DNA from: Terriglobia bacterium
GTDB lineage: Bacteria; Acidobacteriota; Terriglobia; Bryobacterales; Bryobacteraceae
Length of the DNA: 64,000 nucleotides
Reading direction: 5' to 3'
Assembly: GCA_021324615.1 (NCBI GenBank)
Contig: JAJPIT010000030.1
Location: 1 to 64,000 of the forward strand
The notes under the pieces were generated by a model. That model ran no database searches, was not told the origin of the DNA, and worked only from the letters and a program-made list of their open reading frames with translations. A program made the translations under genes and the position numbers. Positions 30,688 through 34,565 of this stretch are shown here, in pieces (positions within the stretch are counted from its first letter, which is position 1; each line of letters begins with the position of its first letter).

Positions 30688-30763
30688 ATATGATTAGAAT
30701 AACGCGAGAAGACGATAGATTCATTTGCACGTTTGCGGAGGACGCGGCGTCAGGGTTAGTAAG

Positions 30764-31345
30764 ATGGCGAGCGTCCCGTCGGTTTTTGAGCAAATGAGCG
30801 AAGCTCCCGGCTTTACCCGATACGACGCGGCGGCGCTCGCCAACGAGCAGCAGAGCCGTTTTGTGGCCGACAATCTGCGGCGCGTATTTCTGCTGATCTA
30901 CCGGATTGTCGGCAATGTGGCGGATGCGCAGGACCTGACCCAGGAGGCCTTCATCAAGGCGCTCCAGCGGCAGGATCAGTTGAAGGATCTGGAGAAGGCC
31001 GCGCACTGGCTTTCCCGCATCGCCAGCAACACGGCCATCGATTTTTTGCGCCGCAGCGGGCGGGTGAGTTTTTCCGGCATCGAGGAGGTCCCGGAGCCGC
31101 TGGCCAGCTCGCCGCGGGAAAGTCCGGAGCAACTGGTGCTGCGGGCCGAGCACCGCGAGCGTCTGGAGTCGGCGCTGGGCGTGCTGACGGATCGCGAGCG
31201 CACGGCCCTGCTGTTGCGCGATGTGGAGGGATTGCCGGCCGGGGAAGTGGCCGCGCGGCTGAACTGCTCCAAGGCGACGGTGCGCTCGCATATCGCCAAC
31301 GGGCGGGTGAAGCTGCGCCGCTTCCTTGAAAGAAGGAAAGCATGA
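30764..31345 (+). CDS. ECF-type RNA polymerase sigma factor
   Basis: 193 aa from ATG 30764 (a TTG 39 bases upstream is in frame but has no support). Sigma region 2 at about residues 30-95 ('DAQDLTQEAFIKALQ', then 'AAHWLSRIASNTAIDFLRR') and region 4 at about 135-190 ('LTDRERTALLLRDVEGLPAG', helix-turn-helix 'EVAARLNCSKATVRSHI'). It directs RNA polymerase to a stress regulon. The stop overlaps the anti-sigma candidate by four bases, and that runs on into an exported protein, a rhodanese and a selenoprotein. Such operons are usually auto-activated by their own sigma factor. Confidence 0.9.
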   Translation: MASVPSVFEQMSEAPGFTRYDAAALANEQQSRFVADNLRRVFLLIYRIVGNVADAQDLTQEAFIKALQRQDQLKDLEKAAHWLSRIASNTAIDFLRRSGRVSFSGIEEVPEPLASSPRESPEQLVLRAEHRERLESALGVLTDRERTALLLRDVEGLPAGEVAARLNCSKATVRSHIANGRVKLRRFLERRKA

Positions 31346-31989
31346 TGGGCGCTCGGAACAAGACGGCACACCCGGCCGAAACCGATCTGGCCCTGTACGT
31401 TTCCCGCGATCTGCCCCTGTGGCGGCGGATCCGGGTGGGCTGGCATGTTTCCCGCTGCCGGTGGTGCCGGCAGATGGCGGAGATTTACCGCGGCGTCCGG
31501 ATCCGCCTCCGCGAAACCGCCTCGGAGATGCCGGCTGGGGTGAACTGGAACCAACTGGCGGCGGAGATGACGGCCAATATTCGCGTTGGACTGGCCGCCG
31601 GGGAGTGCGTGGCGCCGCGCAAGCGCAGGACAGCGGCGCTTGGCTGGCGGCCGGCGGCGGCCATGGCGGCGCTGGCGGCGCTGCTGATCTGCGCCTGGGT
31701 TTTGAACATGCCGTCGAGCGCGACCCAGGAGCTGGGGCGCGCCGTGGCGGCGATCTGGAGCGGATCGTCTCTCCGCGGCGGCGCGGCGGCGCGCGAGGGC
31801 CGCGGGCTGGTGGTGGAGTTGAGTTCTTCCGGGATCGAGTTGCGCGAAAACGGCAGCACTGTTCTGGGCGTTTCCCGGGATCAGGCCAGGCTGGTTGGCG
31901 TTTCGGCCAGCGTCGAAGGATCGGCCAGCGCGCGCTACGTCGACGACGACACCGGCCAGATGACCATCACGAGCGTGTATGCGCAATAG
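31342..31989 (+). CDS. putative zinc-binding (ZAS-like) membrane anti-sigma factor
   Basis: 215 aa. The N-terminal cytoplasmic part contains H35-X3-C39-X2-C42 ('GWHVSRCRWCRQMAEIYR'), the HXXXCXXC signature of zinc anti-sigma domains, some of which (RsrA-type) release sigma upon thiol oxidation. One membrane helix at about 100-116 ('AAMAALAALLICAWVL') is followed by a periplasmic part of about 100 residues without recognisable domain. ATG overlaps the sigma stop (ATGA). Coupling to an ECF gene plus the motif makes the anti-sigma role likely; the metal and redox response are inferences. Confidence 0.75.
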   Translation: MMGARNKTAHPAETDLALYVSRDLPLWRRIRVGWHVSRCRWCRQMAEIYRGVRIRLRETASEMPAGVNWNQLAAEMTANIRVGLAAGECVAPRKRRTAALGWRPAAAMAALAALLICAWVLNMPSSATQELGRAVAAIWSGSSLRGGAAAREGRGLVVELSSSGIELRENGSTVLGVSRDQARLVGVSASVEGSASARYVDDDTGQMTITSVYAQ

Positions 31990-33073
31990 AGCCATTCTCG
32001 CCGCGCTGGCCTGCGCCGCCGGCGCGCCTTGGCTGCCGGCGCAGGGCCTCAGCCGCAAAGTGAATCTGCCGGCGGACTCGCCGGTGACGCTGGTTTCGGT
32101 GGATTGGGGCGGAACCGAGGCCACCGCGCGCGGCGGCGCGTTCTTCCTGGACGTGCATGCCTCGCTGGCGCTGCGCAACTCCAGCCAGAAGCGGGTGCGC
32201 GCGATCACCTTCGCGGTGCTTTCGCAGGAAGTGACGCCGGGCGGCAAAGGATCGGTTTCGGTGCCCAGCCTGGATGTCGCTCCCGGCGACGTTTTTCCGG
32301 TGGGGATCGATCTGCGGCTGCTGCGGCCGATCGCCGGAGGCGCCGGAGTCGAGGTGAAGCTGGACGGGGTGCTGTTCGACGATCTGAGTTTTTACGGTCC
32401 CGACAATCTGCAATCGCGCCGCACCATGACGGTGTGGGAGCTGGAGGCCCGGCGCGACCGGCAATACTTCAAGAAGCTGATGGAGACCGCCGGAGCGAAA
32501 GCCTTGCAGCAGGCGATGCTGGAGAATCTGAGCCGGCAGGCGGACCGGCCGCTGGCGGCCATGCAGATGGTGCGCGGCCGCGCGACCAACCTCGAGCCGG
32601 AGCGCGATTTGAGCTTCGCCTTCCTGGAGATTCCCGACGCGCCGGTGCTGGCCATGAACGGCATGGCTCGCGTGGCCGGCAGCGAAGCGCATGCGCCGAG
32701 CGTGGAGGTCCGCAACCGCAGCGAGCGTCCGGTCCGTTATCTGGAAATCGGCTGGATCGTGAAGGATCAGCAAGGGCGCGAATTTCTGGCGGCCTCCATG
32801 CCCGCCGAGGTGAGCCTGGCCCCGGGAAAAACCGGCCAGGTGGGGCAGGACGCGGCCTTGCGCTTCCCCGAACGCACCAGCATTCAAGGCATGAGCGGCT
32901 TCATTTCGACCGTCGGATTCGCCGACGGGTCCTACTGGATTCCCAGCCGCGCCGCGCTGAGCGACGCACGCCTGCGCCGCCTGATCTCCCCGTCGCCGGA
33001 GGAGCAGCGGCTGACGCAGATTTATCAGAAAAAGGGCTTGAGCGGGCTGATGGAGGAATTGAAGAAGTTTTGA
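31979..33073 (+). CDS. exported protein of unknown function in the sigma-factor operon
   Basis: 364 aa. Signal peptide (about 1-22, LPAQG). The mature part reads as beta-sandwich repeats: 'HASLALRNSSQKRVRAITFA' (about 61-80) and a later 'SVEVRNRSERPVRYLEIGW' look like two related domains that comment on how residues pack rather than catalyse. The C-terminal about 30 residues are helical ('RLTQIYQKKGLSGLMEEL'). The ATG lies inside the anti-sigma gene (11-base overlap), and its TGA overlaps the rhodanese TTG. I recognise no characterised family. Its location suggests that it is an envelope target or signalling partner of the sigma system. Confidence 0.7.
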   Translation: MRNRAILAALACAAGAPWLPAQGLSRKVNLPADSPVTLVSVDWGGTEATARGGAFFLDVHASLALRNSSQKRVRAITFAVLSQEVTPGGKGSVSVPSLDVAPGDVFPVGIDLRLLRPIAGGAGVEVKLDGVLFDDLSFYGPDNLQSRRTMTVWELEARRDRQYFKKLMETAGAKALQQAMLENLSRQADRPLAAMQMVRGRATNLEPERDLSFAFLEIPDAPVLAMNGMARVAGSEAHAPSVEVRNRSERPVRYLEIGWIVKDQQGREFLAASMPAEVSLAPGKTGQVGQDAALRFPERTSIQGMSGFISTVGFADGSYWIPSRAALSDARLRRLISPSPEEQRLTQIYQKKGLSGLMEELKKF

Positions 33074-33441
33074 GCGCTTCGACTCCCTGGCCGGACAAGC
33101 CGGTGAAGACGCTTCCGCTGGAGATCACCCCCGGCGAGCTCCGCCGGCGGCTCGACGTCGGCGAAGAGATCCGGCTCATCGACGTCCGCGAGCCGCGGGA
33201 GTACGAAACAGCGCGCATCGAAGGCGGCGAACTGATTCCCATGCGCGGGATTCCCGCGGCGCTCCTCAAGCTGCGGGCGGAATCGATGCACGCAACCCTT
33301 GTCGTCTACTGCCATCACGGTGTCCGCAGCCTCAACGTCGTCCACTGGCTGCGCGAGCAAGGCGTGGAGTCCTGCCAAAGCCTGGCCGGCGGCATCGACG
33401 CCTGGAGTCGCTTGATCGATCCGTCTGTGCCACGATATTAG
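33070..33441 (+). CDS. single-domain rhodanese-like sulfurtransferase
   Basis: 123 aa. Rhodanese fold with 'IRLIDVREPREYETARI' (about 35-50) and the active-site loop 'VVYCHHGVRSLNVVHWL', Cys81 being the persulfide-forming residue; 'SLAGGIDAWS' closes the domain. It would shuttle sulfane sulfur (or possibly selenium) between thiols in the cytoplasm. The start is TTG within the preceding TGA (TTGA, 33070-33073), and no other start fits before the domain. The ArsC/Spx-family selenoprotein gene begins three bases after its stop, so the two are probably functionally linked. Confidence 0.88.
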   Translation: MSASTPWPDKPVKTLPLEITPGELRRRLDVGEEIRLIDVREPREYETARIEGGELIPMRGIPAALLKLRAESMHATLVVYCHHGVRSLNVVHWLREQGVESCQSLAGGIDAWSRLIDPSVPRY

Positions 33442-33443
33442 GC

Positions 33444-33782
33444 ATGACGGTTTACCTGAAGCCCACCTGAACCACCTGCCGCAAGGCGAAGAGTTGGCTT
33501 CGCCAGAAGGGCGTCGACGTCCGGGAGATCGATCTGAGCAAGGGCTTGAGCGAATCGGAGCTGGACCGGTTGATTGGCGCGCGCGACTATAAACAATTCC
33601 TCAACACGCGCAACGAGCTCTACCGCGAGCGCAACATGAAAGCAAATCCGCCCTCGCGCGCGGAAGCGATCAAGCTGATGGCGGCGCATCCCAATCTGAT
33701 CAGGCGTCCGATCCTGGTGAACGGATCGAAAATCGCGGTGGGCTTCGAAGAGGAGGAGTTCCGCAAAACCGCCGGCGTCTAA
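33444..33782 (+). CDS. ArsC/Spx-family thioredoxin-fold selenoprotein (in-frame TGA = Sec)
   Basis: 112 codons from ATG 33444 to TAA 33780-33782, interrupted only by TGA at 33468-33470 (codon 9). Around it the protein reads YLKPT-U-TTCRKAKSW, which aligns with the ArsC/Spx/YffB signature PXCXXCRKA; the TGA sits exactly at the first, catalytic Cys, and C12 is kept (UXXC). The rest is a normal family member: 'EIDLSKGLSESELDRLIG', 'FLNTRNELYRERNM', and 'LIRRPILVNGSKIAVGFEEE'. A 7-bp hairpin beginning 14 bases after the TGA fits a bacterial SECIS. Sec-containing ArsC-like proteins have been reported in environmental sequence, so this is a credible member. The family reduces arsenate or protein/glutathione mixed disulfides; the exact substrate is unknown. 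If TGA were read as stop, only an 8-residue peptide would result and an otherwise intact gene would be lost. selA/B/C/D are not in the window. Confidence 0.88.
33485..33504 (+). promoter_or_regulatory. bacterial SECIS element candidate
   Basis: GGCGAAG (33485-33491) pairs perfectly with CTTCGCC (33498-33504) around the 6-base loop AGTTGG. The loop starts 21 bases after the TGA, within the 16-37 base range of bacterial SECIS models, and has a G in its first two positions as the consensus asks. SelB would bind it to recode the UGA at 33468. Confidence 0.75.
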
Positions 33783-33819: not shown

Positions 33820-34176
33820 CTATCCCGGCGCCCGGCCCAGGCCCAGGAAAGCGAGCCCGGCGAAGATCAGCGCCAGCCCGCCCGCCTTTCCCCAGGTGAG
33901 CGGCTCATGGAAAAAGATCCTCGACCAAAGGATGGTCCAAAGATAGCCCAGCGCGACCATCGGATACAACACGCTGAGCTCGCCTTCGGTCATGCCCCGC
34001 ACGAAAAAGACCGACGACAGCGCGTACAGCGCGATGCCGGCCAGCAGATGCCAGTTGGTGGCGAGCGAGGCCAGGCCGCCGCGCAGCCTTCCCGCCGCCG
34101 CCTTCAAAAACGCCGCACCGAAGCTGCCGATGAATCCGGCGGCGAACACGTAGAGCATGGAAGAAAGCGGCGTCAT
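33820..34176 (-). CDS. SMR/EamA-like small membrane transporter, subunit 2
   Basis: 118 aa, four predicted membrane helices. 'EGELSVLYPMVALGYLWTIL' and the C-terminal 'WGKAGGLALIFAGLAFLGLG' match half-size DMT-superfamily (EmrE/ArnE-like) subunits. ATG overlaps the stop of the preceding homologue (ATGA, 34173-34176). Two unequal small subunits in tandem usually form an antiparallel heterodimer that moves drugs, polyamines or lipid-linked sugars. The substrate cannot be told. Confidence 0.82.
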   Translation of the reverse strand: MTPLSSMLYVFAAGFIGSFGAAFLKAAAGRLRGGLASLATNWHLLAGIALYALSSVFFVRGMTEGELSVLYPMVALGYLWTILWSRIFFHEPLTWGKAGGLALIFAGLAFLGLGRAPG

Positions 34177-34565
34177 TTTTGCTGGCCCGATCCGGCGCCC
34201 AGGGCGGCCACTCCGCCGCAGATCAGCGCGATGCCGGCCAGCTTGGCCGCGTTCATCTTATCGCCGAAGACCGCCGCCGACAGGATGGTCACCCAGACGA
34301 AGGTGAGCGCGATGACCGGATACACCGCCGACAACTCGCCATGGCGAAGCGCCACCACCAGCAGCACCATGCTCAGCGCGTAAAGGGAGTAGCCGAGGAA
34401 AAGCTGCGGCGTAGTCAGAATCGCCAGGCCCGTCGCCAGCAACGTCGGATGGCCAAGCGCGTTGGCGCCGTTTTTGATCAACACCTGGGCGCCGGCGTTG
34501 ACCAGCGTCACGCAAAAGACCAGGAAAATCGCAAAGCGCCGCTGCGCCGGGGTGGCTTCGGTCAA
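34173..34565 (-). CDS. SMR/EamA-like small membrane transporter, subunit 1
   Basis: 130 aa, four membrane helices; 'HGELSAVYPVIALTFVWVTI' parallels the same segment in the downstream subunit, showing a duplication. 'KLAGIALICGGVAALGAG' ends the last helix. The start is TTG (34565). It likely forms a heterodimer with the overlapping downstream gene. Neighbours (GH63-like hydrolase upstream, selenoprotein convergent) do not reveal the substrate. Confidence 0.82.
   Translation of the reverse strand: MTEATPAQRRFAIFLVFCVTLVNAGAQVLIKNGANALGHPTLLATGLAILTTPQLFLGYSLYALSMVLLVVALRHGELSAVYPVIALTFVWVTILSAAVFGDKMNAAKLAGIALICGGVAALGAGSGQQK

Follow-up and report, generated by a model that had tools for sequence, protein, structure and literature searches.

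An acidobacterial ArsC/Spx-family gene very likely encodes selenocysteine at its active site

Introduction

The reading frame at positions 33444–33782 of the window (the whole 64,000-nucleotide stretch of DNA analyzed here) is interrupted by an in-frame TGA close to its start codon, at the place where homologous proteins carry a redox-active cysteine. Is this gene damaged, or is the TGA translated, and if so, into which amino acid and in what kind of protein? A first-pass annotation made from the DNA had proposed an ArsC/Spx-family selenoprotein. The selenocysteine (Sec) machinery of the genome, the TGA and Cys codons of the orthologues, and a hairpin seen across relatives all support that proposal, and we consider it very likely that the frame is a genuine selenoprotein gene.

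The reading frame and its TGA codon

The gene comprises the following features:

33444–33782, + strand: coding sequence of the proposed ArsC/Spx-like selenoprotein, 112 residues, from ATG at 33444 to TAA at 33780–33782 (assigned with PF03960, TIGR01617 and an AlphaFold model)
33468–33470, + strand: TGA, putatively read as selenocysteine U9, the first residue of UxxC (from orthologue codons and the Sec machinery of the genome)
33477–33479, + strand: TGC, Cys12, the predicted resolving residue, which is the only Cys of the protein and is invariant in a 30-row alignment

When the TGA is read through, the translation is MTVYLKPT-U-TTCRKAKSWLRQ...KTAGV, and the active site takes the form U9-T-T-C12, with the UGA aligned to the redox Cys of homologues. 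The TGA is the lone internal stop of the frame and the remainder is intact, just as the first-pass annotation had described it. The same annotation had predicted that an automatic gene caller would either truncate the gene or start it 102 bases late, and the mechanical list of open reading frames indeed begins this frame at a TTG at 33546.

We scanned the whole window for open frames in which a TGA is accompanied by a hairpin of at least 6 bp and by a Cys at a distance of two or three codons. Four places passed, and the stem behind the TGA at 33468, at 7 bp, is longer than those at the remaining three. These lie at 31308 (+), 57865 (+) and 16852 (–), have hairpins of 6 bp close to a TGA and a Cys, and probably reflect chance.

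Selenocysteine machinery in the genome

The genome assembly that contains the window is a draft of 3.94 Mb in 127 contigs and is 99.3% complete. A search of it for selA, selB, selC and selD returned all four: selA at 489 bits (cut-off 268), selB at 350 bits (cut-off 242), selD at 375 bits (cut-off 125) and tRNA-Sec at 72.9 bits (cut-off 47), the last with the anticodon tca by ARAGORN. A genome lacking selB or selC had been named at the outset as the case that would overturn the proposal; because both selB and tRNA-Sec are present, this objection does not apply. The selD gene (locus L018, contig C113) has an in-frame TGA of its own (AAG-U-ASKL) and is likely a second selenoprotein gene of the genome. 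The sequence behind the selD TGA folds into a hairpin, a fold taken without a control.

Codon alternation among relatives

Among 101 genomes (the window's own and 100 relatives), 63 gave a match to the protein. Matches of >100 bits, found in 48 genomes, were taken as orthologues, and the remaining matches were all <36 bits. Of the 48 orthologues, 34 carry TGA at the codon in question and the other 14 a Cys codon, TGC or TGT. We added 51 loci from the best 80 of 473 relatives, after setting aside 29 duplicates of earlier loci and retaining near-identical ones; 30 of these have TGA and 21 have a Cys codon. Every orthologue and every added locus from the best 80 of 473 accordingly has TGA, TGC or TGT at this position, as expected from the claim that the TGA occupies the catalytic Cys site, and the alignment of close homologues that had been suggested as a check gave this same alternation of Cys and Sec. 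All 99 protein sequences (48 plus the 51 from the best 80 of 473) are distinct. An informal comparison of the window gene with four Sec relatives showed a mixture of synonymous and non-synonymous codon differences.

The TGA codon follows the Sec machinery. A selA gene over the cut-off was found in 34/34 TGA genomes versus 5/14 Cys genomes (Fisher's exact test, P = 1e-6), and within the window's genus in 5/5 TGA versus 0/7 Cys genomes (P = 0.0013); both P values are generous, because related genomes are counted several times and relatedness is uncorrected. For selB over the cut-off the counts were 33/34 TGA and 7/14 Cys genomes, and for tRNA-Sec (E up to 1e-10) 33/34 and 6/14. The TGA genomes that depart from this pattern are both drafts: G034 gave no selB at E 1e-50, and G004 no tRNA-Sec at E 1e-10. 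On the Cys side, G051 has selB and tRNA-Sec, G021 has selB only, and five genomes (G024, G068, G072, G073 and G074) have selA, selB and tRNA-Sec together, so possession of the machinery does not force the use of Sec.

The family is not confined to the genus. Of 297 genomes drawn evenly from the phylum, 15 matched at E up to 1e-25, 13 of them outside the genus; 12 of these 13 contain one TGA, counted wherever it falls within the match, and the thirteenth match starts past the site.

These data bear on the possibility that the gene is a pseudogene, in which a random nonsense mutation or a sequencing error struck the active-site Cys codon by chance. The draft state of the assembly, in 127 contigs, and an extra TAG in one relative (L025) leave some room for such errors. 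Nevertheless, TGA recurs at the same codon in 34/48 and 30/51 loci (the latter from the best 80 of 473) drawn from many assemblies, it tracks both selA and the hairpin described below, and conservation of the protein extends to either side of the codon (mean column identity of 66% over the 30-row alignment). We therefore rejected mutation and sequencing error alike, on the cross-species pattern of TGA and Cys, the machinery and the hairpin, and regard the chance that either accounts for the TGA as negligible. The first-pass annotation had already called a random nonsense mutation at the redox Cys very unlikely, a judgment that the cross-species TGA pattern bears out.

The TAG of L025 (genome G015) lies in frame 30 codons past the TGA of a Sec orthologue that is otherwise intact, and is either a sequencing error or the beginning of decay.

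The hairpin behind the TGA

The proposed recoding signal is the following:

33485–33504, + strand: putative bacterial SECIS hairpin within the coding sequence, stem 33485–33491 / 33498–33504, loop 33492–33497 (AGUUGG), identified by comparison across Sec and Cys genes

A SECIS-like hairpin behind the TGA had been part of the original proposal, and the sequence GGCGAAG-AGUUGG-CUUCGCC indeed forms one with a 7-bp stem. Judged by folding energy in this one sequence, the hairpin does not stand out (z = –1.58, with 18 of 200 shuffles folding equally well); its rise above chance appears on comparison across relatives. In the first set of 48 orthologues, a stem of at least 5 bp occurs in 33/34 Sec genes and 2/14 Cys genes, and in the 51 further loci (best 80 of 473) in 29/30 and 3/21, respectively. 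When the two sets were pooled (48 plus the 51 from the best 80 of 473), 62/64 Sec genes had such a stem, compared with a mean of 7.1 and a maximum of 16 in 1000 synonymous shuffles, while for Cys genes the count was 5/35, compared with a shuffle mean of 2.4 and a maximum of 9. Taken one by one, 23 of the 34 Sec genes of the first set have stems beyond 95% of their own synonymous shuffles.

The manner of conservation also points to the RNA. Relatives rebuild the stem with other bases (GGCUAGG/CCUAGCC, GGCCAGG/CCUGGCC, AGCAAGA/UCUUGCU), and the stem pairs covary; for example, pair 18–30 in one register appears as CG, TG, TA, GC and GT. The stem is found in three registers, shifted by one base from one another (that of the Sec genes L051, L057 and L059 being the middle one), and the G-U loop stays in place. 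Loop residue G23 is kept in 63/64 Sec genes of the pooled set (48 orthologues plus loci from the best 80 of 473), and a conserved apical G of bacterial SECIS elements is named in figure legends of PMC1088965 and PMC1794560. A stem of at least 5 bp together with this G is what we looked for in the SECIS element of a bacterial selenoprotein gene, and the pooled genes display both. The exceptions among Sec genes as regards the stem are L095 (3 bp) and L023, of the same genus (4 bp). L095, with its TGA and 3-bp hairpin, is placed among Cys genes in the tree described below.

The codon at +8 provides a further trace of such a constraint. It is AGT or GGT in 61/64 Sec genes, and of the 35 Cys genes at least 24 have a Lys or Ala codon there, 3 have GGT and 2 have AGT (both counts from the 48 orthologues plus loci from the best 80 of 473). 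Because AGT represents 2.9% of Ser codons elsewhere in the pooled genes, it seems that the RNA dictates the amino acid at this codon.

Could the UGA instead be translated through natural suppression or a reassigned code, as Trp or Cys? We found nothing in the analysis in favor of this idea. The genome has tRNA-Sec, SelA, SelB and SelD, the hairpin accompanies the TGA genes, and the 364-aa gene lying upstream (see below) itself terminates in TGA. Code reassignment was rejected on the cross-species TGA/Cys pattern, the machinery and the hairpin, and we give suppression or reassignment practically no credence. The DNA itself shows the gene, the Sec machinery and the hairpin, and from these we infer that the UGA is decoded as Sec.

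Gene neighborhood

The genes upstream of the selenoprotein gene are as follows:

33103–33441, + strand: rhodanese-domain protein with a CHHGVRS loop and a GTG start (PF00581, 58.1 bits)
31979–33073, + strand: 364-aa protein with no Pfam or NCBIfam match, recognized by synteny
31342–31989, + strand: probable anti-sigma factor, from position and synteny (weak NCBIfam match of 24.3 bits against a cut-off of 100; no Pfam match)
30725–31345, + strand: ECF sigma factor (Pfam Sigma70_r2 and r4_2; also in four other genomes of the genus), taken as same-genus neighborhood and not as a functional part

The end of the rhodanese gene is separated by 2 bases from the ATG of the selenoprotein gene, and the two genes are likely co-transcribed. 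A motif scan found a rhodanese active-site motif immediately upstream at 12 of the 48 orthologue loci (10/34 Sec and 2/14 Cys); these loci span the window's genus and other families in the class. On the other side, two adjacent small EamA-type genes at 33820–34565 (–) face the selenoprotein gene, one of which scores slightly below the Pfam cut-off.

We checked upstream synteny at 12 of the 47 other orthologue loci. Homologues of the sigma factor, the anti-sigma factor and the 364-aa protein occur in the same order in one Sec genome (G010) and three Cys genomes (G003, G011 and G021), all of the window's genus; in G022, a partial 364-aa homologue is present where the contig ends. At E 1e-4, none of the three was found upstream in four Sec genomes with at least 6 kb of upstream sequence (G016, G049, G052 and G053) or in the Cys genome G012, and none was found in G004, G006 and G015, in which the upstream sequence is <3 kb. 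Because Sec and Cys loci of the same genus share the sigma neighborhood and the four other Sec genomes are without it, we interpret it as local synteny, and we rejected the idea that these genes are in general functionally linked to the sigma factor. The first-pass annotation had considered a Sec gene within a sigma-factor operon unusual; sigma genes do lie upstream, but 'unusual' overstates what is a genus-level synteny that includes Cys versions.

Family, structure and possible function

With the TGA read through, the protein scored 77.1 bits with Pfam ArsC (PF03960, cut-off 24) and 82.1 bits with TIGR01617, the Spx/MgsR-related subfamily (cut-off 75.05). In contrast, NF041106 (ArsC_rel_Se_1) gave 40.3 bits against a cut-off of 85, and membership in that family was considered but fails on this score; a six-frame search of the genome with the same model gave 32.6 bits at this locus, likewise below the cut-off. 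Within the 30-row alignment, TIGR01617 matched 30 rows and NF041106 matched 26, both as judged by an E-value threshold of 1e-5 and not by the curated cut-offs. An AlphaFold model built with Cys in place of U9 has a mean pLDDT of 95.7 and sets residue 9 just before a helix (10–21). The best structural match by VIA-align was the ArsC-related protein 3gkx (Z 17.4, rmsd 1.8, 110 aligned residues), followed by ArsC, YffB and Spx structures, mostly at Z 14–16.

SelB and Sec-tRNA(Sec), directed by the hairpin at 33485–33504, would recode the UGA at 33468–33470 to yield a 112-residue protein of the ArsC/Spx fold with the active site U9-T-T-C12. Motif and fold together suggest how this protein could work. 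The U9 selenolate, placed ahead of helix 1, would attack an oxidized substrate, and the intermediate would be resolved by C12 through formation of a U9-C12 selenenylsulfide, which a thioredoxin-type donor would reduce again. As C12 is the sole Cys, this selenenylsulfide would be the natural resolved state. We think that the protein probably acts as a reductase, and a persulfide, disulfide or oxyanion substrate would fit the rhodanese neighbor and the basic residues R56 (R or K in the 30 rows) and R88 (invariant).

A more specific assignment would be a classical glutaredoxin-coupled arsenate reductase with Sec in place of the catalytic Cys, in keeping with the Pfam ArsC score of 77 bits and with an ArsC fold bearing R56 and R88. 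The dedicated model TIGR00014 (arsenate reductase, glutaredoxin) gave only 49.8 bits against a cut-off of 106.05, the motif is UxxC with an internal Cys, and the immediate neighbors scanned in the window include no ars genes; we regard this assignment as unlikely.

It is also conceivable that the protein is a Sec-based regulator of the Spx type, whose U9-C12 pair would serve as a redox switch and which would bind the α-CTD of RNA polymerase, possibly together with the co-located ECF sigma factor. Such a switch would sense peroxide or persulfide and alter RNA polymerase, and in the window's genus it would adjoin an ECF sigma gene; among the titles and abstract openings searched in the open-access literature, none describes a Sec-based switch of this type. 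Spx proteins make up the top six sequence matches among known structures, TIGR01617 is passed (82.1 versus 75.05), R56 and R88 align with R60 and R92 of Spx (Spx residues counted by hand in the HMMER alignment), and sigma-factor genes lie nearby. Against these points, Spx G52, which PMC2801614 describes as required for the α-CTD contact, has no partner in the HMMER alignment to our protein, where a gap of two residues covers it; three dedicated Spx models remain below their cut-offs (74.7 versus 123, 55.2 versus 159 and 42.7 versus 152); an ArsC-related protein ranks first in the structural comparison, with Spx close behind; and the sigma context belongs to one genus and is common to Cys forms. 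On balance a regulatory role of this kind appears very improbable, and the reductase remains our preferred reading.

Changes between Sec and Cys

A tree of the 99 sequences (99 columns with the active-site and hairpin columns excluded; 51 rows from the best 80 of 473) implies 12 Sec/Cys changes, of which at least 9 are forced by well-supported branches; it includes L025 with 24% of columns, its bootstrap is unsettled, and only the number of changes is used here. On these sequences, Sec and Cys have been exchanged repeatedly, mostly within Acidobacteriota. In one clade the direction can be proposed. The Cys gene L113 has a nearly intact hairpin (GCAAGA-GGUC-UUUUGC), and its Cys sisters L105, L133 and L144 keep mismatched copies; because Cys genes here retain copies of the hairpin, the clade probably converted from Sec to Cys, likely recently. 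PMC1794560 contains precedents for SECIS remnants in Cys genes.

Among the best 80 of 473 relatives, the locus titles are acidobacterial in all but three: L091 (Arcobacter, Sec), L092 (Betaproteobacteria, Cys) and L097 (Acidimicrobiia, Sec). L091 and L092 nest within acidobacterial clades of the tree, and may represent misnamed bins or gene transfers.

Discussion

ArsC-like selenoproteins with a UxxC motif are already known, and the gene studied here is a further member. Several described groups resemble it. The domain cd03032, which appears in the naming of one of these groups, we take to be the Spx-type ArsC domain. PMC2398784 reports 42 Sec sequences of 'Arsenate reductase 2' (cd03032, UxxC) in the Global Ocean Sampling; this is probably the nearest described group, sharing UxxC with our protein, though it consists of metagenome sequences and is likened to it by description alone. 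That report agrees with the earlier remark that Sec-containing ArsC-like proteins are known from environmental data. An 'Arsenate reductase-like protein, UxxC' is listed under NF041106 in PMC13188914 and under COG1393 in PMC9312934. The NF041106 selenoproteins belong to the same ArsC-type family and have Sec first in UxxC, but the window member falls under the cut-off of that model. According to PMC1794560, ArsC-like selenoproteins occur in Desulfotalea psychrophila and Desulfuromonas acetoxidans; these cases are likewise genomic, but from Deltaproteobacteria.

More distant is the UxxS 'Arsenate reductase' of PMC1088965, which is placed under TIGR00014 in PMC13188914: it has Sec at the same ArsC active-site position, but no Cys follows at the second position of the motif. 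Spx (6ghb, 1z3e, 3l78) and YffB/ArsC (1rw1, 1i9d) share the whole-chain fold and have Cys, not Sec; the CxxC of Spx aligns to the UxxC of our protein, and its G52 is without a counterpart. For Acidobacteria, the PMC1794560 survey gives three selenoprotein families (four proteins), and for the acidobacterium Occallatibacter riparius PMC12013277 gives three known selenoprotein genes. In the searched portions of the open-access literature we found no acidobacterial ArsC-like selenoprotein.

The present results add a conserved selenoprotein group in Acidobacteriota. Its member in the window scores below the cut-off of the NCBI model for ArsC-type selenoproteins, and plain ORF calling truncates it. 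With its repeated alternation of Sec and Cys, its hairpin remnants in some Cys genes and, in one genus, Cys genomes that lack selA, the group offers a useful natural series on why environmental bacteria keep or drop selenium.
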